A stretch of DNA of 45,041 bases from Oscillospiraceae bacterium (GTDB lineage: Bacteria > Bacillota > Clostridia > Oscillospirales > Oscillospiraceae), in assembly GCA_910575265.1 (NCBI GenBank), contig CAJTEA010000019.1, positions 1-45,041 on the forward strand. The letters run 5' to 3'. The notes under the pieces were generated by a model that saw only the letters and a list, made by a program, of their open reading frames with translations, did not search any database and was not told the origin of the DNA. The position numbers were made by a program, and so were the translations under genes. The number at the start of each line of letters is the position of its first letter. Position 1 is the first letter of the stretch. Of this stretch, positions 21,086 through 45,041 are shown piece by piece.

Positions 21086-21110
21086 GTGGTAATTCCTCCT
21101 TTTTTGCACA

Positions 21111-21139: not shown

Positions 21140-21161
21140 CTTTGGGTGGGATGTTGATTTT

Positions 21162-24952: not shown

Positions 24953-25029
24953 TGGCACCCCGAACTGGATTCGAACCAGCGGCCTACCGCTTAGGAGGCG
25001 GTCGCTCTATCCATCTGAGCTATCGGGGC
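24953..25029 (-). tRNA. tRNA-Arg (anticodon CCU)
   Basis: 77 nt on the minus strand with encoded CCA. The acceptor arm pairs GCCCCGA with TCGGGGT (the first pair is G.U), discriminator G. The D arm contains AGCTCAGATGGATAGAGC, the anticodon loop reads CTCCTAA, and the T arm contains GGTTCGAATCC. It decodes AGG. No promoter lies directly before it; it is probably co-transcribed from the promoter at 25,172-25,200, through the truncated tRNA. Confidence 0.9.
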
Positions 25030-30346: not shown

Positions 30347-30353
30347 GTTGAAA

Positions 30354-30818: not shown

Positions 30819-30842
30819 GAGGAAACCTCCTTTCAGCACAAT

Positions 30843-30901
30843 CGTTAACCCGTTAATGATTAACGTGTTGACTATTTTACTCCCGTGGAAGGAATTGTCA
30901 A
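30843..30901 (-). promoter_or_regulatory. Promoter and MarR-type operator
   Basis: TTGACA (30,896-30,901), 16-nt spacer, TAAAAT (30,874-30,879) on the minus strand. At the predicted start point lies CGTTAA-TGA-TTAACG (30,851-30,865), and another CGTTAA half-site follows at 30,843-30,848. A palindrome of this kind over +1 fits repression by the adjacent MarR protein. Confidence 0.75.
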
Positions 30902-30954
30902 GGGCTTTTGATAAGGGTTCAAAAATTGTTCACAGAATGAAAGCCCGCGGCTGC

Positions 30955-32232
30955 TTATAAGCCGCCTCTTACTTGAATGGAGGCTTTCACGCAGGCCCCG
31001 CTGGGCGATTGGTTTGACAGCTCCAGGGTTCCCCCATGCTTCTGGCACAGCACCCGGCTTACAGCCAGTCCCAGGCCAAGGTGCTTGCCGGAGGGATCCT
31101 CAGAGTAAAACAGGGCGGTTTTCTTCCGCAGCATCGTTTCCGAAAAACCCGGCCCATCATCGGTCACGGTGACTGACAGCGTTCCATGCTCCAGGCAAAA
31201 GGAAAGCTGAATTTGCCGCCGCGCAAAACGCAGAGCGTTGGAGATCAGATTTTCCAGAACGCGGTACAACAGCTCCCCGTCAAAGACAGCTTTTCCCTCC
31301 GGCACCTGGAAGTCGCAGGAAAACCGCGTCTCGGTGTTCTGGAACAGGACGGATAAGGAATCCGCCATGTGCTGTAAAAAAACAGGAAGCTCTGCCTCCG
31401 CGCGGTGGATTTCTGTCTCCTCAATCGCCCCCAGGTCACGCATGGTATCGGTATAACGTCCCATACGCTCCGCGGTAGTGCCGAGGTTGGACAGTGACTG
31501 TTCCAATTTTTCATCCGTTAAAGTCCCGCCCTGGAGGTTCTCCCGCAAATACTCCACATAGCCCTTTATGATAGCGATGGGATTGCGCAGGTCATGGGCC
31601 ACGGATGCCTGTAACGCGCGGCGTTCCTCCAGCATACTCCATAGCTGGCGGTTATTTTCATACAGGGTCCGCCGCGTTTTCTCAAACGCGGTACACAGCT
31701 GGCCTAGCTCGTCCTGCCGGTCAAAGCCAATCCGGAAGCCCAAATCCTGATTCTGGATGCGCGTTGTGGCGTCCATAAGGACTGAGATCGGCGGTTCCAG
31801 TATCTTGTGATAAAACCACCATGCGCACAGGGTAATTCCAATCACAGCAAACAGGAGCGGCAGCAGCACTATCGAGATCTGTGAAACGCGGTAGACCGCT
31901 TTCGCTCGTGACGAGAGCATGGAATAGCTGGATTCAATGCGCTCTATGACGTAACTTGTTTCTTCCTCCTCATGCTCCTGACCGTCCGCCTCCAGCCGGA
32001 TGAAGGGGGAAGGCTGGTCCAGATGATATCGCTGCTTCGCTTCGGTTACTGTGCCATCTGGCGCGGTTGTCCGCTGTGTCAGCCAAACCTCATTGGAATC
32101 GGGAAGAATGTGCTTTTGGAGCTGGTAGCCAAGGAAAATCGTAAGAGCGCCGCACAGGAACACAATCAGCATCGTAATCGCCACAGCCCCCATAAAGGAG
32201 CGTTTCAAGGATTGCCCTTTTACTTTTCCCAT
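30955..32232 (-). CDS. Sensor histidine kinase
   Basis: A 425-residue membrane kinase. Two membrane spans (about 14-34 and 118-140) enclose an ~80-residue extracellular sensor part. A HAMP-like linker follows (ILEPPISVLMDATTRIQNQDLGFRI). The phosphoacceptor H-box is SVAHDLRNPIAIIKGYVEYL, His near 212. The ATPase domain has N-box LENLISNALRFA near 330, G1 DDGPGFSE and G2 GLGLAVSRVL. The ATG lies inside the end of the response regulator gene (13-nt overlap), so both are made from one message. The signal is unknown; the architecture is shared with kinases that sense cell-envelope stress or peptides. Confidence 0.88.
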   Translation of the reverse strand: MGKVKGQSLKRSFMGAVAITMLIVFLCGALTIFLGYQLQKHILPDSNEVWLTQRTTAPDGTVTEAKQRYHLDQPSPFIRLEADGQEHEEEETSYVIERIESSYSMLSSRAKAVYRVSQISIVLLPLLFAVIGITLCAWWFYHKILEPPISVLMDATTRIQNQDLGFRIGFDRQDELGQLCTAFEKTRRTLYENNRQLWSMLEERRALQASVAHDLRNPIAIIKGYVEYLRENLQGGTLTDEKLEQSLSNLGTTAERMGRYTDTMRDLGAIEETEIHRAEAELPVFLQHMADSLSVLFQNTETRFSCDFQVPEGKAVFDGELLYRVLENLISNALRFARRQIQLSFCLEHGTLSVTVTDDGPGFSETMLRKKTALFYSEDPSGKHLGLGLAVSRVLCQKHGGTLELSNQSPSGACVKASIQVRGGL

Positions 32233-32894
32233 CGGTAGCCCATCCCCCAGACTGTTTCAATATACCCGCTCCCGCTGGCCCGCATGAGCTTGGCGCGAAT
32301 TTTGCGGATATGCTCCTTTATCACATTGCTGTCGCCCTGGGCGTCATAGCCCCATACCGCCTCATAGATACGCTCTTTGTCAAAGACCTGATTCGGATTA
32401 GAGGACAGAAATTCGATGATATCAAATTCTCTCTTTGAAAAAGAGAGCTCCCGCTCATTCCAAAATACTTTTCGGTCAGAGAGGTTGATAATCAGCCCTT
32501 GGGAGGTCACAACCTCCGGAGGGCGGTTGTTCCGTTCGTCCCGGCGCAGATGCGCCTCAATACGGGCAATCAATTCCCGCAAGCTGAAGGGCTTGGTAAT
32601 GTAGTCGTCTCCTCCGGCCCGTAAGCCGTTGACCTTATCCTGTTCGGTGATCCGCGCTGTCAGGAACAGGATGGGACAAACAATATGGTTCCGAATGATC
32701 TTGCACAGCTCCAGTCCATCCATCCCCGGCATATTGATGTCCAGAAGAATGAGATTCGGCTTGGTATTCAGTTTGGCCAGGGCCTCGTCGCTGCTGTTGG
32801 CGGTAAACGTCATATATCCGTGATCCTGTAAATGATTGGAAAGCAGCTCTGTCAGCATCGCCTCATCATCAACAATCAGTATTTTATACCCCAT
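32220..32894 (-). CDS. OmpR/PhoB-family response regulator
   Basis: A 224-residue two-domain regulator. The receiver has the acidic pocket (DDE at 9-11), phosphorylated Asp52 in LLDINMPGMDG and the conserved Lys in YITKPFS. The C-terminal winged-helix domain contains LSFSKREFDIIEFLSSNPNQVFDKERIYEAVWG and VIKEHIRKIRAKL, ending in GYIETVWGMGYRWEK. An open frame continues 75 codons upstream, but the ATG at 32,892-32,894 begins the canonical receiver MGYKILIVDDE and has GGGGGT before it. It overlaps the kinase gene by 13 nt. Confidence 0.9.
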   Translation of the reverse strand: MGYKILIVDDEAMLTELLSNHLQDHGYMTFTANSSDEALAKLNTKPNLILLDINMPGMDGLELCKIIRNHIVCPILFLTARITEQDKVNGLRAGGDDYITKPFSLRELIARIEAHLRRDERNNRPPEVVTSQGLIINLSDRKVFWNERELSFSKREFDIIEFLSSNPNQVFDKERIYEAVWGYDAQGDSNVIKEHIRKIRAKLMRASGSGYIETVWGMGYRWEK

Positions 32895-33152
32895 TGTGAT
32901 ACCCCCTTTTTCATTAGCATAAGGGTCAAAAGTCAAGAAATGGTCAAAACCATCCAATTTATGCGCGATGGTTAACCAGGATTCCCGATTCCCTTTCGCA
33001 TTATAACCGAGCGGCTCGCGCAACGCAATCGTCTCGGCGCGGATGGCGGCGCTCTGACGCGCGGTCCATATTTCACTCGCGCGATTCCCCGCGGGAAAAC
33101 GGGGGTGGAAAACGGACAAGCGGAGCGCGATGATCCCATCATGCGGAAAATG

Positions 33153-33197: not shown

Positions 33198-34115
33198 CTA
33201 TGGAATTCCAGGAGTAATACGCGCGCCGTGGTGTCTGACCATCCATTTGTTGCGAATAAAATCCTTCACCTGCTGAATGAAAGCGAGGGCGGCCGGTGAC
33301 ATGTGCTTAAAGGATTTCGCGCAGATGCCCAGTGTGCGGAAATATGGCTTTGTCAGTGGGCGTGTCACGATATTGGGATAAATCGGGATAATGGCCAGCT
33401 CAGGAATCAGGGACACCCCCAGATTCCGCGCGACCATGGAGACGGTAGCGATGTCGCCCTTGATGGTAAAGCGGACATTGGGTTCCAGATGTTCCGACTG
33501 CAGGACATGCTGGATTGTTTCGTTCGCGCCCTGATTTGGCACGATAAAAGGAAACTGAATCAACTCCTGAAGGTCAATAAACTCATGATGGGCCAGAGGA
33601 TTTTCGCTGGAGAGTACCGCGAGGGTCGGGTCCTCCCAAAGAGGAAGGAAGTGAAAGCCGTTGGGTTGTGGATAAGAGATGATGGCAATGTCAATTTTTC
33701 CATCCGTCAGCCAGCTCTGAACCTCTCCATAGGTCCCCTCAAAGATGCGCAGGTCAATCCCGGGGTGCCGCGCCAGGTAGGTGGATACAATATCAGGAAA
33801 CCATTGGGTGCAGACACTCATAAAGCCCCCTACCTTCAGTTCGCCCATCTCAATTCCCTTCAGCTGGCAGGACATCTCCTGCAGCGTATTTTCCGCCGAT
33901 ACGATCTGCTGCATGTAGGGCTGAAGGCGCAGCGCCTCTGCCGTGGGGGAGACCCCGTTTTTCCCGCGGAACAGGAGCTGGAGCCCCAGCTCCTGTTCCA
34001 GGGAGGAGATCATGAGACTGATTCCGGGTTGCGTATAACCAAGAATGTTAGCGGCCTTTGTCAAACTTTTTTGTTCCGAAGCGGTAAGAAAAGCGCGGTA
34101 TTTTTGAATACTCAT
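33198..34115 (-). CDS. LysR-family transcription regulator, divergent from the transporter operon
   Basis: A 305-residue LysR-type regulator. The N-terminal winged helix-turn-helix is KSLTKAANILGYTQPGISLMISSLEQELGLQLLFR (about 16-50). The effector domain is a periplasmic-binding-protein-like fold with typical blocks (GELKVGGFMSV, HPGIDLRIFEGTYGEVQSWLTDGKIDIAI near 120-148, VARNLGVSLIPELA near 235). It is read away from the binding-protein gene at 34,347, with a shared 231-nt region holding a T-N11-A palindrome. By the usual logic of this family it should activate the divergent operon in response to the imported compound or a breakdown product. Confidence 0.9.
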   Translation of the reverse strand: MSIQKYRAFLTASEQKSLTKAANILGYTQPGISLMISSLEQELGLQLLFRGKNGVSPTAEALRLQPYMQQIVSAENTLQEMSCQLKGIEMGELKVGGFMSVCTQWFPDIVSTYLARHPGIDLRIFEGTYGEVQSWLTDGKIDIAIISYPQPNGFHFLPLWEDPTLAVLSSENPLAHHEFIDLQELIQFPFIVPNQGANETIQHVLQSEHLEPNVRFTIKGDIATVSMVARNLGVSLIPELAIIPIYPNIVTRPLTKPYFRTLGICAKSFKHMSPAALAFIQQVKDFIRNKWMVRHHGARITPGIP

Positions 34116-34166
34116 AATTTTTTTGGCCTCATAATGAAATGAAATGAATGATGTAAAACATATTTA

Positions 34167-34196
34167 ATTGTAAAATACAATGCTCGGGGGTATAAT
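34167..34196 (+). promoter_or_regulatory. Operon promoter with LysR-type palindrome
   Basis: ATTGTA-AAA-TACAAT (34,167-34,181) is a perfect palindrome of the LysR T-N11-A kind. It overlaps a -35-like TTGTAA (34,168-34,173), which stands 17 nt before a perfect TATAAT (34,191-34,196). The predicted leader is about 145 nt. LysR could bind here both to control the operon and itself. Confidence 0.7.
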
Positions 34197-34346
34197 GTCA
34201 ATGGAATTATTCCTGATTTTTCGACAAAATTCTTCCGGAATTTTGGCAATTTGCCGAGCGGTTTCGGGAACAGAAAAACGGGATATATTTGGCCCGTGAG
34301 CAGCGGGGCAATTATATAAAAATTTTTTAGAAAAGGGGTACAAGAA

Positions 34347-35603
34347 ATGAAAAGACGTATGGCATGGTTCCTGGCTGTTGTAATGGCGGTATCCTGTCTG
34401 GCTGGCTGCGCCCAACAGGGCGCGCCCAGCTCCAGCGGTTCCGGACAGCCGCAGGGAAATGTGTCCGGCGGTGGGGATGAGGGCTTTACCGGAACAATCA
34501 AGTTCGGTATTGGCTGTCCGCTGACCGGCACCAGCGCCTCCTATGGTGAGCTGATGCTCCTGGGCGCCAATATGGCGGCGGAGGAGCTGAACGAGGCCGG
34601 GGGAATTCAGGGGATGAAGGTAGAAATCGTGGCCTACGACGACAAGCAGGACCCCAACGAGGCCGCTCTGGTCGCCCAGCGTTTTTGTGACAACGAGGAG
34701 ATCTATGCCGTCATCTCTCACGGCGGAAGCGGCTTGACGATGGCGGCCGCCCCCATCTATGAGGAGGCCAAGCTGACCAATATGGCCCCCAGTTCCAGCG
34801 CCTCCCTGGTGACAGAGCAGGGCCATCAGTATCTGGTCCGCCACGTGATCCGTGAGGACCGGCAGGCCCCCCAGGTCATTGCCTTCCTGGCCAACAACAT
34901 GGGCTGCGAGAAGATCGCCGTGATTTATGCCAATAACGACCATGGCCAGGGCAACCTGGAAACCTCCCTGGAAGTGGCGAAAGAGCTGGATCTTGAGGTT
35001 GTAGCGACAGAAACATATACCCCCGGCACTGAGCGCGATTTCTCTGCGCTGCTGACCAAGGTGAAGCGGGCCAACCCGGACGGCATCGCGATTTACGCCG
35101 ACTACGCCGAGGGCGGCATGATTTTGGGACAGGCCTATCAGCAGGGCATGACGGATATCCCCTGGGTGGGGCAGAGCTCACTGACCTATAACACGCTGAT
35201 TGAGCTGGCCGGTGTAGAGGCCCTCCAGAACCTCTATATGACCATCACCTTCAACCCCTACTCCGAGCGTCCCGTGGTCAAAAGCTTTATGGAGCGTTTC
35301 CAGGCCCAGCGCGGCGAGGGGGAGATTCCTTCCGAGCCCTGCGCGTTCTCCTATGACATTATCAAGGTCTATGCCCAGGCGATCGAGGCCGGTGCGGCCA
35401 AGGACAACCTGGCCCTGTGGATCAAAAATCTTGTGCCCGGACAGGAGCCTTTCGTAGCTTATGATATTTTGCTGGGCGATGAGGTCCAGTGGGACAGTAA
35501 GGGCGACGTGCTGCCTCGAGGCGTTGATATTCTGAAGGTCAGCCCGGAGGGCAGGTTTGTGGACACGGACCTGGCGGTGGATGTCAGCGGCTTGGATATG
35601 TAA
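34347..35603 (+). CDS. Substrate-binding lipoprotein of a branched-chain-amino-acid-type ABC transporter
   Basis: A 418-residue LivJ/LivK-type binding protein (periplasmic binding fold type I). The signal peptide MKRRMAWFLAVVMAVSCLAGC has its lipobox cysteine at residue 21, followed by a Ser/Gly-rich linker. The mature domain starts TIKFGIGCPLTGTSASYGE and includes KVEIVAYDDKQDPNEAALVAQRF and GSGLTMAAAPIYEEAKL, typical of the Leu/Ile/Val family. This family also binds amides, urea, aromatic and other small compounds, so the ligand cannot be told from the sequence. It is the first gene of the operon, preceded by AAAAGGGG and followed by a strong hairpin likely to raise its level over downstream genes. 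Confidence 0.88.
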   Translation: MKRRMAWFLAVVMAVSCLAGCAQQGAPSSSGSGQPQGNVSGGGDEGFTGTIKFGIGCPLTGTSASYGELMLLGANMAAEELNEAGGIQGMKVEIVAYDDKQDPNEAALVAQRFCDNEEIYAVISHGGSGLTMAAAPIYEEAKLTNMAPSSSASLVTEQGHQYLVRHVIREDRQAPQVIAFLANNMGCEKIAVIYANNDHGQGNLETSLEVAKELDLEVVATETYTPGTERDFSALLTKVKRANPDGIAIYADYAEGGMILGQAYQQGMTDIPWVGQSSLTYNTLIELAGVEALQNLYMTITFNPYSERPVVKSFMERFQAQRGEGEIPSEPCAFSYDIIKVYAQAIEAGAAKDNLALWIKNLVPGQEPFVAYDILLGDEVQWDSKGDVLPRGVDILKVSPEGRFVDTDLAVDVSGLDM

Positions 35604-35613
35604 CGGACGTTCT

Positions 35614-35641
35614 GGTCCCCGTCCCTCCCGGGGCGGGGACC
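35614..35641 (+). terminator. Hairpin after the binding-protein gene
   Basis: A 12-bp stem with one G.U (35,614-35,625 with 35,630-35,641) and 4-nt loop, 10 nt after the stop codon, with no T-run. Such hairpins often stabilise the binding-protein message. A smaller one (35,652-35,657 with 35,663-35,668) follows. Confidence 0.65.
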
Positions 35642-35732
35642 GGCGCGGGGGAATTCGAAAAACGAATTGAGCTGAAGAAAATGGGCGTTGTTGCCCGCGC
35701 GCCGGAACAATGCCCCGGAAAGGAATGAGACT

Positions 35733-36185
35733 ATGAGTAAACCCGCTTTTTATATGCGGTGGCCGGAGTTCAATATCCAGGTCCGCTGCGTACCGATTCA
35801 CCATAACAGGGAGCTGTTTGACTGGTTTATGCGGAATCTCCCGACAAAATGTGTGCAGACGGTGACCGTATGCGCCGGCCTCCAGCTGTATATGCAGAAC
35901 GTGAAGATGGAAAAGGTGGAGTGCGACTGGATCCAGGAGGACCAGCCCCAGGAACTGATGGCGGAATACCCGGTGGGACGCTTTATGTTTTTTATGACGG
36001 CCGGCCATGTAGCCAATTTTACGATCAAAGCCGGCTATGCCACAGAACCCATGCCCTATCCCACCTGGGCGGATGTGGCGGAGGAGGATATGGATACCTT
36101 TGTCTCAGTGGCGAATGAGATATGGGAGAGTATCCTTCAGGACAAAAAGACCTTTCATGTCGAATTTTTTGCGGCGGAGGAATGA
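35733..36185 (+). CDS. Cyclophilin-like small protein A1 (DUF3830/cucumopine-synthase-like), module 1
   Basis: A 150-residue soluble protein. It begins FYMRWPEFNIQVRC and shows LFDWFMRNLPTKCVQT, PVGRFMFFMTAGHVANF and ADVAEEDMDTF...IWES...FHVEF. This beta-rich pattern with the MRWP start fits the cyclophilin-like DUF3830 fold, the N-terminal half of cucumopine-synthase-like proteins. Assignment is from pattern recall. It is about 45-50% identical by eye to 39,682-40,134 and more distantly related to 36,729-37,175. A CDWIQE block is shared only with its module-2 twin and could carry catalytic or binding residues. The ATG at 35,733 has AAGGA upstream. It is the first of four alternating genes between binding protein and permeases. 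Confidence 0.6.
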   Translation: MSKPAFYMRWPEFNIQVRCVPIHHNRELFDWFMRNLPTKCVQTVTVCAGLQLYMQNVKMEKVECDWIQEDQPQELMAEYPVGRFMFFMTAGHVANFTIKAGYATEPMPYPTWADVAEEDMDTFVSVANEIWESILQDKKTFHVEFFAAEE

Positions 36186-36187
36186 GT

Positions 36188-36709
36188 ATGGATTGGAAAG
36201 CGCTGAAGAAGGAAATCGAGGATATCGCCGCCGCCAGTGTGGAGAACTGCCCGGAGGATATCCTGCGCGTGTTTGAGTATGAGATCGCCCCGGAGGGGTG
36301 TGGCACAGGCGGCCTGATGCTGGGGCCGTGGTATGAGGGGGCTACGGCCAGCCGGTATCTGATCCCCTACTACATGTATAACATTGTCAAACTGACCAAG
36401 GATCTGAATCTGTCTGTGGAGCGGATTCGCCAGCACATGCGCCTGACCATGACCAAGGCCCTGGGGACCGCGGAACTCTCCGGGATGCTGGTTCTGGCCG
36501 ACCTGACCCGCCGTACCATGGCCTGTGTGGATGAAATGGAAAACCGGGAGGAAGTTCTGGAGCTGCTGAACGCGCTGTATCTATACGGCTCCAGCATCAA
36601 CGCGTGGCAGAACTACCGGGTGAAGTGGGGTCTGAACCAGGCCTTTGTTATCCCGACCGGACATGAACTGGTTGAGATGGGAAAACGGGCCGAAGAAAGC
36701 TATATTTAA
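36188..36709 (+). CDS. Helical-bundle protein B1 (cucumopine-synthase C-terminal-like), module 1
   Basis: A 173-residue, almost all-helical soluble protein. Key blocks are GGLMLGPWYEGATASRYLIPYYMYNIVKL (near 43-71), a repeated acidic/Leu helix, LLNALYLYGSSINAW (near 127-141) and KWGLNQAFVIPTGHELVEMG near the C-terminus. These are kept in its twin at 40,139-40,663. Position after a cyclophilin-like gene and helical content suggest it is the detached C-terminal helical bundle of a cucumopine-synthase-like enzyme; I am moderately sure of this. The ATG at 36,188 is 7 nt past GGAGG, better than the ATG two codons earlier that overlaps the previous stop. Confidence 0.55.
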   Translation: MDWKALKKEIEDIAAASVENCPEDILRVFEYEIAPEGCGTGGLMLGPWYEGATASRYLIPYYMYNIVKLTKDLNLSVERIRQHMRLTMTKALGTAELSGMLVLADLTRRTMACVDEMENREEVLELLNALYLYGSSINAWQNYRVKWGLNQAFVIPTGHELVEMGKRAEESYI

Positions 36710-36728
36710 ACCGGAAGGATGAGAACTG

Positions 36729-37175
36729 ATGTTGCACTTTACAATGCGCTGGCCCGGCCTGGGACTCAGCGTGGCCTGTGAGTCCTGCGGCGAGAACGAG
36801 GAGGCGCTGCGGATCTTCATGGACAATATGCCCATAAAGACGGTCCAGGGACACGAGATGGTAGGCGGCTGGATGCTCCGGGATCGTTCCGTGGTCATGA
36901 ACCAGCGTTTTTTTGATATCCCTGCCTCCAAACTCAGCCTGGAGACCATGAAAGACGCGCCGGTAGGGCGGATCAGCATGCTGTTTCCACAGGGGCGGAT
37001 GACAGAACTGCTGGTAAAATACGACAACTGCGATGATTTCCGAAGCTATGTGCCGGTGGCGAAGGTTGCCGAACAGGATCTGGAAACGCTGAAGGAAGCT
37101 GGCAGGTTACAGTGGCGGAGCGCCACACGCTCCAAAGAGGTCATCGCCGTTGAGTTTGTTGTGGAGGATCACTGA
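36729..37175 (+). CDS. Cyclophilin-like small protein A2, module 1
   Basis: A 148-residue soluble protein of the same fold as A1, starting LHFTMRWPGLGLSVAC. Distinct features are VQGHEMVGG (near 40-48), DAPVGRISML, ELLVKYDNCDD and LQWRSATRSKEVIAVEF. These are retained in 40,683-41,126 but not in the A1 proteins, so A1 and A2 are separate lines that diverged before the module was duplicated. The histidine and glutamate of GHEMVGG are candidate active-site residues, by conservation only. Ribosome site GGAAGGATGAG; 19 nt after B1. Likely works with B2. Confidence 0.6.
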   Translation: MLHFTMRWPGLGLSVACESCGENEEALRIFMDNMPIKTVQGHEMVGGWMLRDRSVVMNQRFFDIPASKLSLETMKDAPVGRISMLFPQGRMTELLVKYDNCDDFRSYVPVAKVAEQDLETLKEAGRLQWRSATRSKEVIAVEFVVEDH

Positions 37176-37176
37176 T

Positions 37177-37689
37177 ATGAAAACATTTGCGCAACTGAAA
37201 GCGGAAATTGACGAGCAGGTCGCCGCCACAACACTGGACCCGGACCGTGATGTCAGGGACCTGGTGCGGTTTTCCATCAGCAAGGCGGGCTGCGGTTATC
37301 CCCAGGACAACCAGATCTTCACCACCTGGTTTTACGGTACACCGGACTGCGGGTATATCACTGACTGGTGTTATTTTCTGATTGAGCTGTCCTATGACCC
37401 GTCCTACTCAATGGAGGCGCTGTGCCGTATTGCCCGGTTCTGGTTTTTGCAGCCCTCCCATTTCGCGCAGTACGCGGGCCTGTTCAAGCAGTATTATTTC
37501 ACCAAACAGATTGACCGAATCATGGATACCCTTACCCGGCAGGAGTTTGTGGAGCTGCTTTCCGCGTTCCGCGCGTATATCGCGAACATTAATGTTTGGG
37601 TATACCACTACTTCCCCTGGGGCGTCGGGTACGCGTTTCCGCGTAAGGATACCAGATATTATGAAGAGGCGCTGGCTCTATGTGAGTAG
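37177..37689 (+). CDS. Helical-bundle protein B2, module 1
   Basis: A 170-residue soluble helical protein. Conserved with its twin at 41,129-41,647 are FSISKAGCG, DNQIFTTWFYG, YITDWC, a RFWFLQPSHF block and WVYHYFPWGVGYAFPRKDTRYY near the C-terminus. It shares with B1 the general plan of an N-terminal amphipathic helix, a central Tyr/Trp-rich segment and a C-terminal WG motif, so B1 and B2 are probably distant paralogs. Two-base spacing from the A2 stop and GGAGG upstream of the ATG at 37,177 indicate coupled expression with A2. Confidence 0.55.
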   Translation: MKTFAQLKAEIDEQVAATTLDPDRDVRDLVRFSISKAGCGYPQDNQIFTTWFYGTPDCGYITDWCYFLIELSYDPSYSMEALCRIARFWFLQPSHFAQYAGLFKQYYFTKQIDRIMDTLTRQEFVELLSAFRAYIANINVWVYHYFPWGVGYAFPRKDTRYYEEALALCE

Positions 37690-37740
37690 GCGGGGCGGCC
37701 TGAGGAGGCTTCCCCAATCAGTCAGGAAAGGGATGAAACT

Positions 37741-38631
37741 ATGAGCGCGGAGTTGGAATATTTTTTGAGCCAGCTGATCAATGGGCTCGCCTTGGGCAGT
37801 ATGTACGCCATGATTGCTGTGGGCTACAGCATGGTGTACAGCCTGCTTTACCAGGTCAATTTCGCCCACGGCGATCTGTATGTCTTTGGCACCTTTATTG
37901 TCCTGTCCTTCATCACCGCCGGCCTGCCGATGATTCTGGCGATCATACTTGGCGCCGTCGCCGCGGGGATCATTGGCATGTTGATTGAGCGCGCCGTCTA
38001 CAGACCGGTCCGGGGGGCGAACCGTATTGTTCCCATGATAAGCGCCCTGGGCGCGGCCTTTGTGCTGCGGACCATCGCGCAGGTCACCTGGGGACCGGAA
38101 ATGCTGTCGTTCCCGGCCCTGATTTCCCGGAACGCCGCCTTTAACATTGGCGGCTTCCGGGTACAGTACCAGCAGCTGCTGGTGCTGGGCGTGGCTGCCG
38201 TATCAATGCTTCTGCTGACCTTTGTGATGGAGCGGACAAAGCTGGGCCGTGCGACCCAGTGCATTATGCAGGACATCAATACCGCCTCCCTGATGGGCAT
38301 ACCGGTCAATAAAATCATTCCCTTAGTCTATGCCATGGGTGGATTCCTAGGCGTTATTGGCGGGGTGCTGTACTGTTCCTACTACAATAACATCTCCATC
38401 AGCATGGGCATGTGGGGAACGATCAAGGCCTGGGCCGCCGCGATGCTGGGCGGCGTGGGGACCTTCTATGGGTCCTTCTTCGGCGGTATCCTCTTCGGTC
38501 TGGCGGAAACCCTGGCGGGCGGCTATATCAGCACCGGGTTTAAAGAAGCCATCGGTTATATCATCATTGTGATCATCCTGCTCATCAAGCCGACCGGCCT
38601 GTTTGGCAGGAAGAAGGCAAAGAAGGTGTGA
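37741..38631 (+). CDS. livH: Branched-chain-type ABC permease LivH-like
   Basis: A 296-residue inner-membrane permease with about eight spans. It opens FLSQLINGLALGSMYAMIAVGYSMVYSLLYQVNFAHGDLYVFGTF, the classic LivH start, and includes AVYRPVRGANRIVPMISALGAAFVLR, TQCIMQDINTASLMGIPVNKI (the ATPase-contact loop region) and MLGGVGTFYGSFFGGILFGLAE. With LivM it forms the channel for the compound bound by the 34,347 lipoprotein. The ATG follows AGGAAAGGG. It overlaps the LivM gene by one base at the TGATG junction. Confidence 0.9.
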   Translation: MSAELEYFLSQLINGLALGSMYAMIAVGYSMVYSLLYQVNFAHGDLYVFGTFIVLSFITAGLPMILAIILGAVAAGIIGMLIERAVYRPVRGANRIVPMISALGAAFVLRTIAQVTWGPEMLSFPALISRNAAFNIGGFRVQYQQLLVLGVAAVSMLLLTFVMERTKLGRATQCIMQDINTASLMGIPVNKIIPLVYAMGGFLGVIGGVLYCSYYNNISISMGMWGTIKAWAAAMLGGVGTFYGSFFGGILFGLAETLAGGYISTGFKEAIGYIIIVIILLIKPTGLFGRKKAKKV

Positions 38632-39659
38632 TGATCGTGACAATAAAAATGTTGAAAGAAAACGCCGCTGTACACAAAAGGAGCCTTCTGGCGGTTTTCC
38701 TGGGCCTCCTGCTGGTTTTTCCCCAGGTATCTGGCGGGATCATTGTCCGTGTGGGCACAAATATAATGATTTATGCCATTCTCACAATGGGCGAGCAGCT
38801 TATCTGTGGCTACACCGGTATGCTGAATCAGGGCATGGCCGCCTTCTATGGTGTGGGGGCCTACGCCTCCGCGCTGCTGTCGCTGAATCTGAACCTGCCA
38901 TGGTTCGCGTGTTTTCTGGGCGGCGGGCTGATCGCCGCGCTGGTAGGGGTGTTGATCGCGATCCCGTGCCTGCGGGTGGAGACAGACTTCCTCAGCCTGA
39001 TTACGATCGCCTTCGCCAATATTTTCACCGCGATTTTGAACAACTGGACCGGACTGACCCGGGGGGCGGCCGGTATCCCCAGCATTCCCGCCGCCAGCCT
39101 GTTCGGCTTTCAATTCCAATCCGCCGCCAGCAGCTTTTATTTGATCCTGGGCGTCACCATCCTGGTCTATGTCTTTTTGAATAACCTGATTCATTCCAAG
39201 GTCGGCCGCGCCTTTATGGCGGTTCGGGACAATGAAATCGGAGCCAGCTCGGTGGGGATCAAAATCAACCGCTGCAAAGTGCTGTCCTTTGGCATCGGCA
39301 CCTTCTGCGCAGGTCTGGCGGGCAGTTTGATGGCGCACTACATTGGATTTGTCGGGCCAACCAATTTCACCTTTGATGTGTCCCTGCTTATCCTCCAAAT
39401 GTGCATTATCGGCGGACTGGGAAGTATGCCGGGCGCGATCGTTGGCGCGGCGTTCTTCACCATCATGCCGGAGGTCATCCGGCCCCTGGCGGTGTACCGC
39501 GTAGGCGTTGGCGGCGTCATCATGATCCTGTTCATGCTGTTCCGGCCCCAGGGGCTGCTTGGCTCCAAGGCTTACGCGGGCAAGGGCGGCTTTGAGGCGC
39601 AGATGAAGGAGTTTATGCGCCGCCGGAAAGAAAAGAAAGCAAAAGCCGCTCCGCGGTAA
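38631..39659 (+). CDS. livM: Branched-chain-type ABC permease LivM-like
   Basis: A 342-residue permease, partner of LivH. After a short cytoplasmic start it has about nine to ten spans, with GYTGMLNQGMAAFYGVGAYASALL (typical LivM), PCLRVETDFLSLITIAFANIF, FMAVRDNEIGASSVGIKINRCKV (ATPase contact) and IGGLGSMPGAIVGAAFFTIMPE. The basic tail (RRRKEKKAKAA) is cytoplasmic. The ATG at 38,631 overlaps the LivH stop. It is followed after 22 nt by the second cyclophilin-like module. Confidence 0.9.
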   Translation: MIVTIKMLKENAAVHKRSLLAVFLGLLLVFPQVSGGIIVRVGTNIMIYAILTMGEQLICGYTGMLNQGMAAFYGVGAYASALLSLNLNLPWFACFLGGGLIAALVGVLIAIPCLRVETDFLSLITIAFANIFTAILNNWTGLTRGAAGIPSIPAASLFGFQFQSAASSFYLILGVTILVYVFLNNLIHSKVGRAFMAVRDNEIGASSVGIKINRCKVLSFGIGTFCAGLAGSLMAHYIGFVGPTNFTFDVSLLILQMCIIGGLGSMPGAIVGAAFFTIMPEVIRPLAVYRVGVGGVIMILFMLFRPQGLLGSKAYAGKGGFEAQMKEFMRRRKEKKAKAAPR

Positions 39660-39681
39660 GCGAAACAGAGGAGGTAAATTT

Positions 39682-40134
39682 ATGCTTGAGAGGCAATTTA
39701 TTATGAGATGGAAGGCCCTGGGAAAACAAGTCCGGGTCAGGCCGGTGGACCATAATCAGGAAGTATTTTCCTGGTTTATGAAAAATCTGCCTACCGCCTG
39801 CCTCCAGACTGAGACGGTGGTGGCCGGCAAGTCCCTATTTATGCTGAATGTGCCTATGAGGAAAGCGGCCTGCGACTGGATCCAGGAGGAACGCCAGGTG
39901 GAGGATGTGGTACAAATGCCCATCGGCCGGATGACATTTTTCATGACCACCGGCAATGTAGCGGATATCAGCTGTAAGTTTGGCCAGATGACTGAGCCGA
40001 TGTCTTATGTCACCTGGGCTGAGGTGGTGGAAGAGGATAAAGCCACACTGGTCGAGGTAGGCGAGCGGCTGTGGGAGAACACCATGTGCGAAAAAGAGCC
40101 GGTTATCGTGGAATTTTTGAGTGAGGAGGAATAG
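39682..40134 (+). CDS. Cyclophilin-like small protein A1', module 2
   Basis: A 150-residue protein, same length as its twin at 35,733-36,185, with shared MRW, FSWFMKNLPTACLQT, the CDWIQEE block, PIGRMTFFMTTGNVADI and TEPMSYVTWAEVVEED. Divergence is well past the point of recent duplication, so both copies have been kept under selection. Inferred to be the cyclophilin-like half of a cucumopine-synthase-type enzyme. The ATG has GAGGAGG upstream. It begins the second four-gene module, placed between permease and ATPase genes. Confidence 0.6.
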   Translation: MLERQFIMRWKALGKQVRVRPVDHNQEVFSWFMKNLPTACLQTETVVAGKSLFMLNVPMRKAACDWIQEERQVEDVVQMPIGRMTFFMTTGNVADISCKFGQMTEPMSYVTWAEVVEEDKATLVEVGERLWENTMCEKEPVIVEFLSEEE

Positions 40135-40138
40135 ACGC

Positions 40139-40663
40139 ATGGGCTGGGAAGAATTGCGGGCTGCCATTGAGGCGGAGAACGCCCGCGTTTTGGATACGCC
40201 GCCAGAGGACGTCCTGCGCGTATTCAAATTTGATATCCTGAATACTGGGGCGGGCACCGAAGGATTGATGCTGGGCCCGGATTTTGAGGGGGCCACCGCC
40301 ATCCGCTATATCGGCGGCTACTACATTTATAACATCATCAAGCTGGGCGGGCTTCCATCCTATACGGCGGAGCAGATCAAAGAGCTGGCGTTTACTCTGC
40401 TTCCCAAAGCGGTGGGTACGGTGAGGTTGTGCGGTATGAAGACCTACGCTGATTTCACCCAGGGGGTGTTGGAACGGCTGAGGACGATGGACGATAAACG
40501 GGATATTCTAAGCCTTTTAAACGCCCTCTATCTCTATGGCTCCAGTATGAACGGCTGGTATCACCACTACATGAAGTGGGGGCTGGGCCAGGCGTTCCGT
40601 ATTCCCACCGGTGAGGAGCTTTTGGAGATGGGCAGCCGGAATACAGAAAGCTTTGTCCGTTAG
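40139..40663 (+). CDS. Helical-bundle protein B1', module 2
   Basis: A 174-residue helical protein, twin of 36,188-36,709: it keeps PPEDVLRVFKFDI, GTEGLMLGPDFEGATAIRYIGGYYIYNIIKL, SLLNALYLYGSSMNGW and KWGLGQAFRIPTGEELLEMG. Conservation of the Gly/Tyr-rich segment and of the C-terminal IPTG-x-EL-x-EMG block suggests they form the functional surface. The ATG at 40,139 lies 5 nt after the A1' stop with GAGGAGG upstream. Function inferred as for B1. Confidence 0.55.
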   Translation: MGWEELRAAIEAENARVLDTPPEDVLRVFKFDILNTGAGTEGLMLGPDFEGATAIRYIGGYYIYNIIKLGGLPSYTAEQIKELAFTLLPKAVGTVRLCGMKTYADFTQGVLERLRTMDDKRDILSLLNALYLYGSSMNGWYHHYMKWGLGQAFRIPTGEELLEMGSRNTESFVR

Positions 40664-40682
40664 TGGAAGGGGGATGACAGCG

Positions 40683-41126
40683 ATGAAGAGCTTTAAAATG
40701 CGTTGGCCTGTCCTGAACTGTGAGGTGCTGTGTGACAGCATCCCGGAGAATCAGGCTGTTTTGGACGCGCTGCTGGAAAACATGCCGGGAAAGGCGTTAC
40801 AGGGCCACGAGATGGTAGGCGGTCGGATCCTCCGCTGCCGCGCGCTCCAGTTGAAAAAGCGTCCTCTGGACTTTGAGGACGGGGAGCTGACGATGGAGAG
40901 CCTGGAACAGGCCCCAGTGGGACGCGTCAGCCTGCTCGGGTCCCTTGGTTCGGCGGTCGAACTGCTGGTGAAGTATGACGACTGTGTGGATGACCGTGAT
41001 TACATCCCAGTGGCCCAGGTTCGCCCCGAATGCCTGTCTGAGCTGCGTAAAGCGGCAAAGCTGCAGTGGCGGAGCGCCACCCGGGAGCAAAAGACCATTG
41101 TCGCGGAGTTTATGGAGGTGGACTGA
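40683..41126 (+). CDS. Cyclophilin-like small protein A2', module 2
   Basis: A 147-residue twin of 36,729-37,175: MRWPVLNCEVLC, LQGHEMVGG, QAPVGRVSLL, ELLVKYDDCVDDRDYIPVAQV and LQWRSATREQKTIVAEF. GHEMVGG is invariant between the twins. An ATG three codons earlier (40,674) is possible, but the one at 40,683 is 9 nt after AAGGGGG and begins at the conserved region. The gene is 20 nt after B1' and 3 nt before B2'. Confidence 0.6.
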   Translation: MKSFKMRWPVLNCEVLCDSIPENQAVLDALLENMPGKALQGHEMVGGRILRCRALQLKKRPLDFEDGELTMESLEQAPVGRVSLLGSLGSAVELLVKYDDCVDDRDYIPVAQVRPECLSELRKAAKLQWRSATREQKTIVAEFMEVD

Positions 41127-41128
41127 AC

Positions 41129-41647
41129 ATGAAGCCCTGGCAGGAATTAAAAAAGAAAATTGATCTGGAGACCGAGCTGACTACCCTGGAGCCGGCCCAG
41201 GACGTGCTGGATGTGTTCCGCTACTCCATCTCCAAAGCGGGGGCTGGTGTGGCCAACGATGGGCAGATTTTCACAACCTGGTTTTTCGGCGGCGCCGATG
41301 TCAGCTACATCGCGGACTGGTGCGGTTTTATTCTGCGCGTGGGAAAAGGCGGGAACTTTACCAGGGAGCAGCTGTGCCAAATGGTGCGGTTTTGGATCCA
41401 GCAGCCCTCTGAATTTGGACATTTCTGCGGTTTGTACCGGCAGTATGAGTTCAGTCAGGCGATCATCGCCATGATGGACGAACTGGAACAGGATGAGCTG
41501 ACAGCGCTGCTGGACAGCTACCGCGGCTATCTGATGAATCTGAACGCCTGGATCTATCAGTATATGCCCTGGGGGGTAGGCCGAGCCATCCACAGAAAAG
41601 ATAAGGCCTATTTTCAGGCCGGCCTTGCCCTGGCTCGGGGACTTTGA
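41129..41647 (+). CDS. Helical-bundle protein B2', module 2
   Basis: A 172-residue twin of 37,177-37,689: YSISKAGAGVANDGQIFTTWFFG, YIADWCGF, RFWIQQPSEF, GLYRQYEFSQAI and WIYQYMPWGVGRAIHRKDKAYF. Invariant Trp, Tyr and the SISKAG and PWGVG blocks suggest a shared binding pocket. The ATG at 41,129 follows GGAGG within the end of A2'. It closes the second module; the LivG-like ATPase follows 50 nt later. Confidence 0.55.
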   Translation: MKPWQELKKKIDLETELTTLEPAQDVLDVFRYSISKAGAGVANDGQIFTTWFFGGADVSYIADWCGFILRVGKGGNFTREQLCQMVRFWIQQPSEFGHFCGLYRQYEFSQAIIAMMDELEQDELTALLDSYRGYLMNLNAWIYQYMPWGVGRAIHRKDKAYFQAGLALARGL

Positions 41648-41697
41648 GCGGTCCGGCGGACAGGCCGGAACAATACCGACACGAGGAGGAGGTTTTT

Positions 41698-42459
41698 GTG
41701 GAACATATTTTAGAGGCCCAGGATATCAAAATGTACTTTGGCGGCGTACATGCGGTGGACGGTGTCTCGCTGTATGTGGATGACAACCAGACCCTGGGCA
41801 TTATTGGTCCAAATGGGTCGGGGAAAACCACATTTTTTAATGTGCTTACCGGTATTTATAAGCCAACAGGGGGCACGTTCCACTACTGTGGGCAGAATAT
41901 AACCAACCGGGAGCTGGATGAAATGGCCGGACTGGGAATCGCCAGGACCTTTCAGAACCTTCGGGTGTTTCACGCCCTGACGGTGAAGGAAAACGCGATG
42001 ATCGGACAGGACCACAACATCAAAACATCGTTTCTTGACAATCTATTTCATACCAGGCGGTTTCAGGAGGAGGAGCGAAAGGCGGAGGAACAGGTGGCGG
42101 AGGCGCTGAAAATTGTCGGTCTGGAGGGCTATGAAAACGAGATCGTCGGCAGCATGCCCTACGGCCAGCAAAAACGGGTGGAGCTGGCCCGGGCGCTGAT
42201 GTGCCAGCCCAAGCTTCTGCTGTTGGACGAACCGCTGGCCGGTATGAACAGCGTGGAAGCGCAGGAGCTGATGGAGCTGGTGCAACAGATCAAGACCGAG
42301 AAACGTCTGTCCATTATCCTGATCGAGCACAACATGAAGGTGATGATGCGGGTGTCCGACCGGATCGTGGTGATGGACCATGGCCGCAAAATTGCCGAGG
42401 GCCTTCCGGAAGAGGTCCAGACGGACAAGCAGGTCATTGAGGCGTATTTGGGGGGATGA
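41698..42459 (+). CDS. livG: Branched-chain-type ABC transporter ATPase LivG-like
   Basis: A 253-residue ATPase. Walker A GPNGSGKTT near 36-44, Q-loop in ARTFQNLRVF, signature YGQQKRVELARAL (LivG-type, in place of LSGGQ), Walker B LLLDEPLAGMN and the H-loop IEHNMKV. The family's long insertion with HNIKTSFLDNLFHTRRFQEEERKAEE is present. The GTG at 41,698 is preferred because GAGGAGG ends 5 nt before it; a TTG 18 codons earlier lacks a ribosome site. It energises import together with LivF. Confidence 0.9.
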   Translation: MEHILEAQDIKMYFGGVHAVDGVSLYVDDNQTLGIIGPNGSGKTTFFNVLTGIYKPTGGTFHYCGQNITNRELDEMAGLGIARTFQNLRVFHALTVKENAMIGQDHNIKTSFLDNLFHTRRFQEEERKAEEQVAEALKIVGLEGYENEIVGSMPYGQQKRVELARALMCQPKLLLLDEPLAGMNSVEAQELMELVQQIKTEKRLSIILIEHNMKVMMRVSDRIVVMDHGRKIAEGLPEEVQTDKQVIEAYLGG

Positions 42460-42463
42460 GAGA

Positions 42464-43171
42464 ATGTTAATTTCGATCCGGAATCTTGACGTCTACTATG
42501 GCCCGATCCAAGCGCTTCACGATGTTGAAATTAATGTAGACCAGGGGGAAATCGTTGCGATCATCGGGAACAATGGGGCGGGAAAATCCACTTTGCTGAA
42601 GACGATTTCCGGGCTGGTGACGCCGCAAAGGGGACAGATCCTCTTTGAGGGGAAGTCCATTGGGGGCGCCCCGGCGGACGCTATTGTCAAAACGGGAATT
42701 GCCCATACGCCGGAGGGACGCATGGTTTTCCCGGACCTGTCTGTGGAGATGAACCTGATGGCCGGGGCCTATACCCGGACGGACCGGGCGGCGATTCGGG
42801 CTGACCTTCAGAAATACTATAAGAAGTTTCCCATTCTGGAGGAGCGGAAGGGCCAGAAAGCCGGCCTGATGAGCGGCGGCGAACAGCAAATGCTGGCCAT
42901 TGCCCGCTCGCTGATGTCCCGGCCCAAGCTGCTGATGCTGGATGAGCCGTCGCTTGGCCTGGCTCCCGTGGTGGTGGACGACGTCTATAAGATTATTACT
43001 GAGATCGCCGCCGAAGGGACCACCATCCTGCTTGTGGAGCAAAATGCCACCCGCGCCCTTCATGTGGCGGATCACGCCTATATCCTGGCTAACGGCGGGG
43101 TGGAGCTGTCGGATACCGGCGAGGCACTGGCCGCGAACGACGAGGTCCGCAAGGCTTATTTGGGTGTTTGA
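42464..43171 (+). CDS. livF: Branched-chain-type ABC transporter ATPase LivF-like
   Basis: A 235-residue ATPase, partner of LivG. Walker A is GNNGAGKST near 36-44, signature MSGGEQQMLAIARSL, Walker B LLMLDEPSLGLAP and H-loop VEQNATRALHVADH. It is of normal LivF length. The ATG at 42,464 is 4 nt after the LivG stop with GGGGGATGAG upstream. It is the last transporter gene; DhaK follows after 95 nt. Confidence 0.9.
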   Translation: MLISIRNLDVYYGPIQALHDVEINVDQGEIVAIIGNNGAGKSTLLKTISGLVTPQRGQILFEGKSIGGAPADAIVKTGIAHTPEGRMVFPDLSVEMNLMAGAYTRTDRAAIRADLQKYYKKFPILEERKGQKAGLMSGGEQQMLAIARSLMSRPKLLMLDEPSLGLAPVVVDDVYKIITEIAAEGTTILLVEQNATRALHVADHAYILANGGVELSDTGEALAANDEVRKAYLGV

Positions 43172-43213
43172 GCTGGAAATAGGAACACATTTTAGGAAAG
43201 GAGTTTGCGATTC

Positions 43214-43254
43214 GGTTCTGGCGGGCGGGAGGGGAAAACCGGTCCGCCGGAACC
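43214..43254 (+). other. Hairpin between livF-like and dhaK genes
   Basis: A 12-bp stem with two G.U pairs (43,214-43,225 with 43,243-43,254) and a 17-nt loop that contains a purine-rich GGGAGGGG. A good AAAGGAG (43,197-43,203 region) stands before the hairpin but far from the dhaK ATG. It may tune translation or protect the message; no T-run follows. Confidence 0.5.
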
Positions 43255-43266
43255 CGCGCGTCAAAA

Positions 43267-44256
43267 ATGGCTATGAAAAAAATTATCAATCAACCGGAAA
43301 ATGTAGTAACAGAAATGCTTCAGGGCATTGCCAAAGCGCACCCCGCTCTGGTCTATACGCCTGGCGCGGAAGTCATCAGCCGCCGGGATCCCGGCAGTCA
43401 GGTAGGCTTGGTATCCGGCGGAGGAAGCGGTCATGAGCCGGCCCACGCGGGCTATGTTGGCATGGGTATGCTCAGCGCCGCCGTCTCTGGAAATGTCTTT
43501 GCCTCTCCCAGCCCGGACCGGGTATTAGAGGGGATCCGCCTGGCTAACACCGGAAAGGGCGTCCTGCTCATCATCAAAAACTACTCTGGAGACATCATGA
43601 ATTTTACCATGGCGCAGGAACTGGCGGAGATGGAGGGCATTCCCGTGCGCGCTGTGGTGGTACGGGATGATGTGGCGGTGCCGGACAGCACCTTTTCCAC
43701 TGGGCGCAGGGGCATTGCTGGTACTGTGTTCGTACATAAGTGCGCGGGAGCGAAGGCGGCGGCTGGCGGCAGCCTGGACGAAGTAGCCCGGGTTGCCCAA
43801 AAAACAGCGGACAATGTCCGCGGCATGGGGTTTGCCATGACGCCCTGCGTTCTTCCCGGAGTAGGAAAGCCCGGCTTTGCGCTGGCCGAGGACGAGATTG
43901 AGATCGGGATGGGGATTCACGGAGAACCCGGCGTAGAACGCGCGACTGTGCGGTCTTCCCGGGAAATTGCCAGGACATTGCTGGATAAAATTTTGGAGGA
44001 CTATGACTTCACGGGCAGCGAAGTGGCTTTGATGGTCAACGGCCTGGGCGGAACACCTTTAATGGAGCTGTACATTTTGGAAAATGATGTCCAAAATTAC
44101 CTTGCGGAAAAGGGCGTCAAGGTGTCCTCTGTTTTTGTGGGCAATTTTATGACCTCACTGGAGATGGCCGGTGGATCGGTCAGTTTACTGAAGCTGGACG
44201 ACGAGCTGAAAACGCTGCTGGACGCGCCCTGCGATACCCCAGCGCTGAAGCGCTGA
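43267..44256 (+). CDS. dhaK: Dihydroxyacetone kinase subunit DhaK
   Basis: A 329-residue DhaK, which binds dihydroxyacetone covalently through a histidine and, with DhaL, phosphorylates it. The key residues fall at the same numbers as in E. coli DhaK: GGGSGH with Gly53 and His56, Asp109 in NYSGD, and the substrate-binding His218 in GMGIHGEPG. All catalytic residues are therefore intact. Position behind an import system and ammonia-lyase suggests it may act on a small keto compound released by the pathway; the true substrate could differ from dihydroxyacetone. No usual ribosome site is seen close to the ATG at 43,267 or the ATG two codons later. DhaL follows 19 nt later. Confidence 0.9.
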   Translation: MAMKKIINQPENVVTEMLQGIAKAHPALVYTPGAEVISRRDPGSQVGLVSGGGSGHEPAHAGYVGMGMLSAAVSGNVFASPSPDRVLEGIRLANTGKGVLLIIKNYSGDIMNFTMAQELAEMEGIPVRAVVVRDDVAVPDSTFSTGRRGIAGTVFVHKCAGAKAAAGGSLDEVARVAQKTADNVRGMGFAMTPCVLPGVGKPGFALAEDEIEIGMGIHGEPGVERATVRSSREIARTLLDKILEDYDFTGSEVALMVNGLGGTPLMELYILENDVQNYLAEKGVKVSSVFVGNFMTSLEMAGGSVSLLKLDDELKTLLDAPCDTPALKR

Positions 44257-44275
44257 TAAAAAGAGGGGGACAGCC

Positions 44276-44914
44276 ATGACATTTTCGGTTAATGACTATG
44301 TGGATTATTGTGTATGTGCCGCGGCACTGATTTCAGAAAACAAGGACTATATTACCGAGTTGGATGCCGCCACAGGGGATGGCGATCACTGGGCCAACAT
44401 GAATTTGGGGTTCCAAAAGCTGGTGGACAGCAATCAGGCGCTGAGAGGGGAATCTTATTCCGGCCTGTTTAAAAAAATCGGTATGACATTGATGGGTACC
44501 ATTGGAGGTTCCTCTGGCGTCCTGTATGGAAGCGCCTATCTCAGCGCGGCCAAGGTGGTGGGGGACACGGATGAGATGGATGTGCGGATCCTCAACCAGG
44601 TGCTTTCCGCGATGATTGAAGGTATTTGCGAACGGGGGAACTCCGGGCCAGGTATGAAAACCATGATTGACACATTGGACGCGGCGGCAGGTGAGCTGAA
44701 GGCCGCCCTGGCCGAGGGCTTAGATGAGGAGGGGGCGCTGCGGCGTATGGAGCGGGGCGCCAAACGGGGGATGGAAAGTACTGCGCGGATGGCGGCGGTA
44801 CGCGGCCGGGCTTATTACCAAGCCGATAAAGGTGTAGGACATCTCGACCCCGGAGCGGTCACGATGTACTATCAGTTAAAAACTCTGGCGGAGTGTATGC
44901 TGAAAAAGCGCTGA
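44276..44914 (+). CDS. dhaL: Dihydroxyacetone kinase ADP-binding subunit DhaL
   Basis: A 212-residue all-helical DhaL, which carries the nucleotide used to phosphorylate the substrate on DhaK. Asp30, Asp35 and Asp37 in LDAATGDGDH match the magnesium-binding aspartates of the family. Further matches are GTIGGSSGVLYG near 74-86, NSGPGMKTMIDTL and the C-terminal GRAYYQADKGVGHLDPGA. In PTS-type systems DhaM re-phosphorylates the bound ADP; no DhaM is visible here, though it may lie past the window. The ATG follows GAGGGGGACA. Confidence 0.9.
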   Translation: MTFSVNDYVDYCVCAAALISENKDYITELDAATGDGDHWANMNLGFQKLVDSNQALRGESYSGLFKKIGMTLMGTIGGSSGVLYGSAYLSAAKVVGDTDEMDVRILNQVLSAMIEGICERGNSGPGMKTMIDTLDAAAGELKAALAEGLDEEGALRRMERGAKRGMESTARMAAVRGRAYYQADKGVGHLDPGAVTMYYQLKTLAECMLKKR

Positions 44915-44934
44915 TAAAAAGGAGGACAAAACAT

Positions 44935-45041
44935 ATGAACAAAGTAATCTTAAACGGCGTAGATCTGAGCATAGAGGACGTGGTAAAGGTAGCGCGTGAG
45001 GGGTATCAGGTGGAGATTGACGCGGCGTGCATGGCCCGGAT
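44935..45041 (+). CDS. Histidine/aromatic amino acid ammonia-lyase, N-terminal fragment (cut by window end)
   Basis: The first 35 codons are visible: MNKVILNGVDLSIEDVVKVA followed by REGYQVEID. The pattern of a short strand, then LT/S-x-EDVV-x-VAR-x-G...V-x-I, is that of the N-terminus of HAL/PAL-family lyases, such as histidine ammonia-lyase, which removes ammonia from histidine to give urocanate. The diagnostic Ala-Ser-Gly (MIO) site lies outside the window, so histidine, tyrosine or another amino acid as substrate cannot be told apart. GGAGG lies 9 nt before the ATG, and the gene continues the operon 20 nt after dhaL. Confidence 0.65.
   Translation, partial: MNKVILNGVDLSIEDVVKVAREGYQVEIDAACMAR

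Follow-up and report, generated by a model that had tools for sequence, protein, structure and literature searches.

A split and duplicated Pictet-Spenglerase-like gene set in an import operon of an Oscillospiraceae bacterium, a candidate cassette for the breakdown of a histidine-derived ring compound

We analyzed a 45,041-nucleotide stretch of DNA (the window), which is contig C19 of an Oscillospiraceae genome (G000; 3.6 Mb, 111 contigs, 96% complete), and found near its end an operon in which eight small genes are woven into the genes of a Liv-type ATP-binding cassette (ABC) importer. The eight genes form two quartets, each in the order A1-B1-A2-B2; the first lies between the solute-binding protein (SBP) and the permeases, and the second between the permeases and the ATPases. 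The coordinates of the open reading frames (ORFs) confirmed this arrangement, which a first-pass annotation had read from the DNA letters. The same operon encodes DhaK, DhaL and the start of a histidine ammonia-lyase (HAL) homologue, at which the contig ends (position 45041). With moderate confidence, we interpret the operon as a catabolic cassette for a histidine-derived ring compound that would be opened by a retro-Pictet-Spengler route.

According to this interpretation, the importer would take up a ring compound of the opine or Pictet-Spengler type, and the A and B polypeptides would together rebuild the two-domain enzyme known as cucumopine synthase, McbB or KslB. A1B1 and A2B2 would probably form an asymmetric heterotetramer, replacing the McbB homodimer (so named in the title of the paper cited for it), with the second quartet as a later copy. 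This enzyme would cleave its substrate in reverse to yield a carbonyl compound and free histidine, which HAL would then deaminate to urocanate, for HutU and HutI encoded elsewhere. DhaKL would take the carbonyl part if it were dihydroxyacetone or a similar small ketose. We infer that the A/B enzyme runs backwards and, less firmly, that DhaKL takes a triose from its reaction.

The A and B proteins are halves of a Pictet-Spenglerase-type protein

All four B proteins of the window matched the C-terminal domain family of cucumopine synthase (PF18631, Cucumopine_C; E 5.3e-6, 6.5e-8, 3.3e-7 and 2.8e-7), as the first-pass annotation had anticipated, with scores of 27.1-33.3 bits against a cut-off of 27. 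Weak rows obtained with a B profile, three proteasome sequences and a spike chain (E 0.003-0.99), were disregarded. The A proteins reached no Pfam or NCBIfam cut-off and gave only weak rows from unrelated families (E 0.012-0.2). A profile of seven A proteins, four of them from the window, matched solved Pictet-Spenglerases with E values down to 8.5e-32, which bears out the earlier proposal that the A proteins are cyclophilin-like. The family suggested for them, DUF3830 (PF12903; cyclophilin-like protein 3kop), had to be dropped, as none of the four matched it at E up to 1. DUF3830 appeared below threshold in the Sodalis A protein (24.7 against 26 bits), in three fused plasmid proteins, in L053 and in P0127, and in none of the A proteins tested from contig C20 of the same genome.

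The helical-bundle domain, the McbB/KslB-type cyclophilin-like domain and the catalytic acid are thus all present, but on separate A and B ORFs, as had been proposed, whereas the bacterial Pictet-Spenglerases McbB (3x27) and KslB (9ns6, 9nst) and cucumopine synthase carry both domains on one polypeptide. The window differs from McbB and KslB also in that its A1B1A2B2 sets are duplicated and share one operon with importer genes, HAL and DhaKL, where the reaction may run in the opposite direction. The two halves have the homology and fold of the Pictet-Spenglerase family and may have its kind of activity.

We compared the columns of R72, H87 and E97, active-site residues of McbB, in 30 A domains; the residues were placed on 3x27 with an offset of 21, and their identities agree with the printed alignment. 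The E97 column, residue 105 of A1, was acidic in 30 of 30 domains (Glu in 23, and Asp in the seven A2 proteins of the quartets). The H87 column was Lys in 12 domains, including all four Agrobacterium/Rhizobium sequences used. All seven A1 types had Asn or Asp there and all seven A2 types had Glu, and the other four domains had Arg, Asp, Phe and His. This 30-pair comparison omits L024 (the same DNA as L023), the second A of L053, extra pTiAg57 copies, the L064, L065 and L067 copies and the Sodalis pair. These columns suggest that the chemistry may have been kept with a different carbonyl partner.

The gene set recurs with histidine ammonia-lyase

Three contigs of metagenome-assembled genomes (MAGs), titled Lawsonibacter, Oscillibacter and uncultured Oscillospiraceae, carry LysR, SBP, both quartets, LivHMGF, DhaK, DhaL and then HAL. 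All eight A/B genes and the eight other operon genes tested recur there in the same arrangement, so that the quartets do accompany a Liv transporter, dhaKL and HAL in other DNA. The first two of these contigs (L023 and L024) share 99.99% identity across 15,211 bases, and with the third (L025) they therefore represent two distinct sequences. In L023 and L024 an MFS gene sits between DhaL and HAL.

The ammonia-lyase of the first-pass annotation is upheld as a HAL homologue by these relatives, although the window itself holds only its first 35 codons. The HAL of L023 matched PF00221 (E 2.7e-163), its best solved relatives are histidine ammonia-lyases (286 bits), and it keeps residues typical of HAL. 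Ergothionase was considered and rejected, since 6s7j scored only 164 bits. Lyases that carry 4-methylidene-imidazole-5-one (MIO) normally have Ala-Ser-Gly at the MIO site. The HALs of L023 (17349-18767) and L025 (17965-19362) have Ala-Cys-Gly there, and the other HALs seen have Ser-Ser-Gly or Ala-Ser-Gly.

The association extends beyond this family. In G084, from another genus, an A-B pair adjoins genes for urocanase and a HutI-like amidohydrolase, as well as HAL and a Pot-type importer. In a plasmid collection, the A and B queries each matched 17 records, and nine of the matching records were examined. HAL adjoins an A/B gene in six of the nine: pAtAG67, pTiAg57 (where HAL is in two pieces), pAvCG412, pRi_26-59, a CG957 plasmid and Sodalis pHS1. 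A fused A-B gene lies directly 5' of hutH in pAtAG67, pAvCG412, pRi_26-59 and the CG957 plasmid, and on five plasmids a B-A fusion adjoins a distinct A-B fusion, with hydantoinase in addition. No HAL was found in the stretches from the T-DNA side of pRi2659, from Paraburkholderia (next to hisG and hisC) and from Rhodococcus (next to peptide-transport genes). Overall, HAL was present in 14 of the 20 A/B-bearing stretches examined, or 13 of 19 without L024, counts in which the Agrobacterium/Rhizobium regions are close relatives of one another.

Part of pAtAg67 is termed a cucumopine-catabolic region in a section of PMC10745273. Like the window, this region and the related plasmids combine an A/B-type protein with HAL and ABC importers in one cluster. 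Unlike the window as far as its contig end, they have fused genes (A-B, B-A), hydantoinase A/B and hutC or other hut genes, and neither quartets nor DhaKL in the stretches examined. Closer to the window in one respect, Sodalis praecaptivus pHS1 has split A and B genes, a regulator, hutH and an ABC importer annotated for amine transport, but it differs in having a single pair, an RpiR regulator and hydantoinase A/B, with no DhaKL in the stretch examined. That importer, A/B genes and HAL occur together in Oscillospiraceae-type MAGs, Alphaproteobacteria and Gammaproteobacteria suggests that histidine-derived ring compounds are broken down.

These genes were sparse in the genomes searched. PF18631 occurred in 2 of 200 genomes of the family and 3 of 398 of the phylum, and an A2 profile in 3 of 400 of the family and 1 of 391 of the class (window genome included in each), as well as in 2 of 9 genomes of the genus of G084. 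Among 5.77 billion proteins there were 12 A1 relatives, and the B profile found 119 (1394 candidates scored), in searches that detect only proteins with shared exact words. Close relatives of both A1 and B1 bear the name Pseudoflavonifractor sp. AF19-9AC.

The host genome itself encodes 12 Cucumopine_C proteins, all over the cut-off, on contigs C19 (4), C20 (5), C9 (2) and C47 (1). C9 carries SBP, LivFGMH, a GntR regulator, one quartet, DhaK and DhaL; C20 carries an A-B-A-B set ahead of an Opp-type importer, two more pairs, and one pair adjoining an NhaC-type carrier; C47 carries one pair with an NhaC-type carrier and LysR. The last 117 bases of the window recur at 100% identity (101-117 bases) in five places, namely one end each of C19, C9 and C47 and the two ends of C20. 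All four contigs therefore break at or shortly past the beginning of one shared HAL sequence (5 of 5 copies). HAL was not found beyond these ends; PF00221 matched only C21, C23 and a piece on C20. The shared ends are possibly an assembly artefact, which would nevertheless leave the HAL of the MAG contigs and plasmids unexplained. Urocanase and a HutI-like amidohydrolase are located on C5.

Both Dha proteins of the operon scored over their equivalog cut-offs. DhaM (TIGR02364) gave no match in G000, and 3 of 14 control genomes were positive. Three DhaK genes were found, on C19, C9 and C3, the last without a Cucumopine_C match. The DhaK of C9 (L005:18201-19199) is divergent, with GGGYGHLP instead of GGGSGHEP and a score of 340.5 bits, under the dhaK1 cut-off; with this motif its substrate may differ.

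Trees of the 30 A and 30 B sequences were largely congruent, and their distances correlated with r 0.87, a value inflated also by gene adjacency and shared descent, against at most 0.24 in 2000 permutations of the labels. The trees indicate that the A1B1/A2B2 split is old, and that the doubling of the whole quartet is a later event of the window-type cluster that predates the separation of the window, L023 and L025 lineages. The single C9 quartet fell outside the doubling for B1, A2 and B2 (supports 0.64-0.87) whereas its A1 grouped with A1' (0.83), a conflict over the exact order of duplication. The ratio of nonsynonymous to synonymous substitution (dN/dS) by NG86 was 0.028-0.122 between the window and L023 for all eight A/B genes, and 0.077-0.221 against L025 for six genes (dS was saturated for A1 and A2, and YN00 gave no estimate for seven of the eight); the ratios are rough because NG86 dS exceeded 1 throughout. 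Low dN/dS and the recurrence in MAG contigs argue that the quartets are not due to chance, and the ratios against L023 speak against chance or decaying repeats.

Direction of the reaction and rival readings

Several observations weigh against the catabolic, retro-Pictet-Spengler interpretation. Ring formation is usually favored, and none of the 14 quartet A proteins has Lys at the H87 column (they have Asn, Asp or Glu), which makes cucumopine itself an unlikely substrate. The L023 HAL, a truncated copy, scored 490.5 bits, under the curated hutH cut-off of 539, the window HAL is a fragment, and neither hutU nor hutI was seen in the operon up to the contig end. Six of the 20 stretches lack HAL (L045, L053, L054, L056, L057 and L058), although L045 and L054 start at contig ends and L056 covers the T-DNA side of a plasmid; instead of HAL, L053 and L054 have asparaginase, and a TRAP/TAXI transporter is present in L053. 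One plasmid relative adjoins histidine biosynthesis genes, which is consistent with synthesis. The characterized members McbB and KslB run in the ring-forming direction.

An unlikely alternative is that the A/B proteins break down histidine-derived, opine-like compounds in another way, for instance as an epimerase, by processing a lactam or imine, or by preparing the ring for the HAL-like lyase itself to open the Calpha-N bond. The HAL association would fit this, as would the Ala-Cys-Gly motif of the L023 and L025 HALs, the quartet A proteins without the Lys of cucumopine-type enzymes, and the five plasmids with B-A and A-B fusions and hydantoinase, on which more than one step must exist. Against this, the E97 column is acidic in all 30 A domains compared, and the simplest use of the fold is the known reaction or its reverse. 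That the A/B proteins are synthases, joining an amino acid from the importer and a carbonyl compound into a ring as McbB, KslB and cucumopine synthase do, seems highly unlikely to us even though the characterized relatives are synthases (PMC12513458 and PMC7024544) and the Paraburkholderia relative adjoins hisG and hisC: SBP, ATPases, DhaKL and a lyase make a catabolic set, HAL would destroy the histidine substrate, and the window cassette showed no exporter, though L023 and L024 carry the MFS gene. There is a very slim chance that the ring derives from another aromatic amino acid, such as tryptophan or tyrosine, and that the HAL-like enzyme is an aromatic lyase of different specificity. McbB and KslB use L-tryptophan and the HAL-like sequence stays under the hutH cut-off, but the solved relatives of the L023 HAL place it with histidine ammonia-lyases rather than ergothionase, and the neighbors elsewhere are urocanase, hutI or hutC.

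A more specific version of the retro-Pictet-Spengler reading is tentative and rather doubtful. Here the split A1B1A2B2 heterotetramer would be a dedicated retro-Pictet-Spengler lyase, used in plug-in cassettes with different importers, A/B sets and their own HAL copies for different histidine-carbonyl rings, and DhaKL would phosphorylate the carbonyl compound of the window's cassette, a neutral triose (dihydroxyacetone or glyceraldehyde). With a neutral triose as partner, the absence from the quartets of the Lys seen in 2-oxoglutarate-type enzymes would be accounted for.

The earlier idea that importer, DhaKL and ammonia-lyase together take up and convert an opine-like compound is therefore partly supported, in its gene set and HAL association, while substrate and direction stay at the level of what the genes suggest. 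Its statement that no pathway of this layout has been described agrees with the literature searched, which mostly excluded subscription papers; that search gave nothing on DUF3830, PF18631 or 'cucumopine synthase-like', and only unrelated work on HAL with opine and gut. The term retro-Pictet-Spengler occurred in two papers of the literature searched; one of them, PMC7024544, in the passages covered, mentions such cleavage only as a putative activity of fungi for which no enzyme is named. Pictet-Spenglerases have been studied as alkaloid builders. If our interpretation is true, a split, duplicated catabolic version beside HAL offers candidate ring-opening genes and small two-part enzymes for synthesis work, and it would link gut anaerobes to the opine-like chemistry known from plant tumors. 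Plasmids with A/B genes both by hutH and on the T-DNA side raise the speculation that the synthases arose from catabolic enzymes.

Operon features and neighboring DNA

The presence of an SBP marks the transporter as an importer, and the nearest solved relatives of this protein are amino-acid, leucine and Leu-Ile-Val binding proteins. Intergenic gaps are 1-19 bases within each quartet and 1 to 129 bases among all operon genes measured (Table 1). No hydantoinase/oxoprolinase A/B or hutC was found among the ORFs identified in 33198-45041, up to the contig end.

Table 1. Genes of the operon and its divergent regulator on contig C19
Feature	Position	Strand	Remarks
LysR-type regulator	33198..34115	-	PF00126, PF03466; divergent from operon
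SBP, Liv/HAAT-type ABC importer	34347..35603	+	PF13458 7.7e-55
A1, cyclophilin-like half	35733..36185	+	residue 105 Glu, McbB E97 column
B1, helical-bundle half	36188..36709	+	PF18631
A2, second cyclophilin-like half	36729..37175	+	Asp at catalytic-acid column
B2, second helical-bundle half	37177..37689	+	PF18631 33.3 bits
LivH-type permease	37741..38631	+	PF02653; LivH-like score under curated cut-off
LivM-type permease	38628..39659	+	PF02653; LivM-like score under curated cut-off
A1', second quartet	39682..40134	+	Glu kept
B1', second quartet	40139..40663	+	PF18631 31.0 bits
A2', second quartet	40683..41126	+	Asp
B2', second quartet	41129..41647	+	PF18631 31.2 bits
LivG-type ATPase	41644..42459	+	PF00005, PF12399; whole ORF, exact start uncertain
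LivF-type ATPase	42464..43171	+	PF00005; LivF-like, under curated cut-off; start chosen by eye
DhaK	43267..44256	+	TIGR02363 463 bits, cut-off 406
DhaL	44276..44914	+	TIGR02365 179 bits, cut-off 138
HAL homologue, first 35 codons	44935..45041	+	gene cut by contig end

Two of the relatives have unusual neighborhoods. L053 (6837-12340), from a different family of the phylum, has A-B-A genes with the TRAP/TAXI transporter, asparaginase and a GntR-like gene. In L057 (3616-9927), on a Paraburkholderia symbiotic plasmid, a fused B-A gene lies by hisG and hisC, and an ATP phosphoribosyltransferase regulatory gene and an MFS gene adjoin it as well; this region is perhaps a synthesis cluster.

Elsewhere on contig C19, a block at 317-23882 resembles an integrated conjugative or mobile element and ends near tRNA-Arg (24953-25029). 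It encodes a C5 cytosine methylase, ParA, ParB, an AAA_25 ATPase and a 2402-aa protein with LPD25, MutS_I, ResIII and N6-methylase domains, and at 16853-21241 (minus strand) lies a surface-protein-like gene whose 1462-aa product combines five SpaA-type stretches with a thioester domain. Between the mobile block and the operon, the minus strand of 26547-33119 carries two ABC exporter-type genes, a MarR-like gene and a sensor kinase/response regulator pair; the MarR-like gene and one exporter-type gene were assigned by eye, and the other exporter-type gene was tested.

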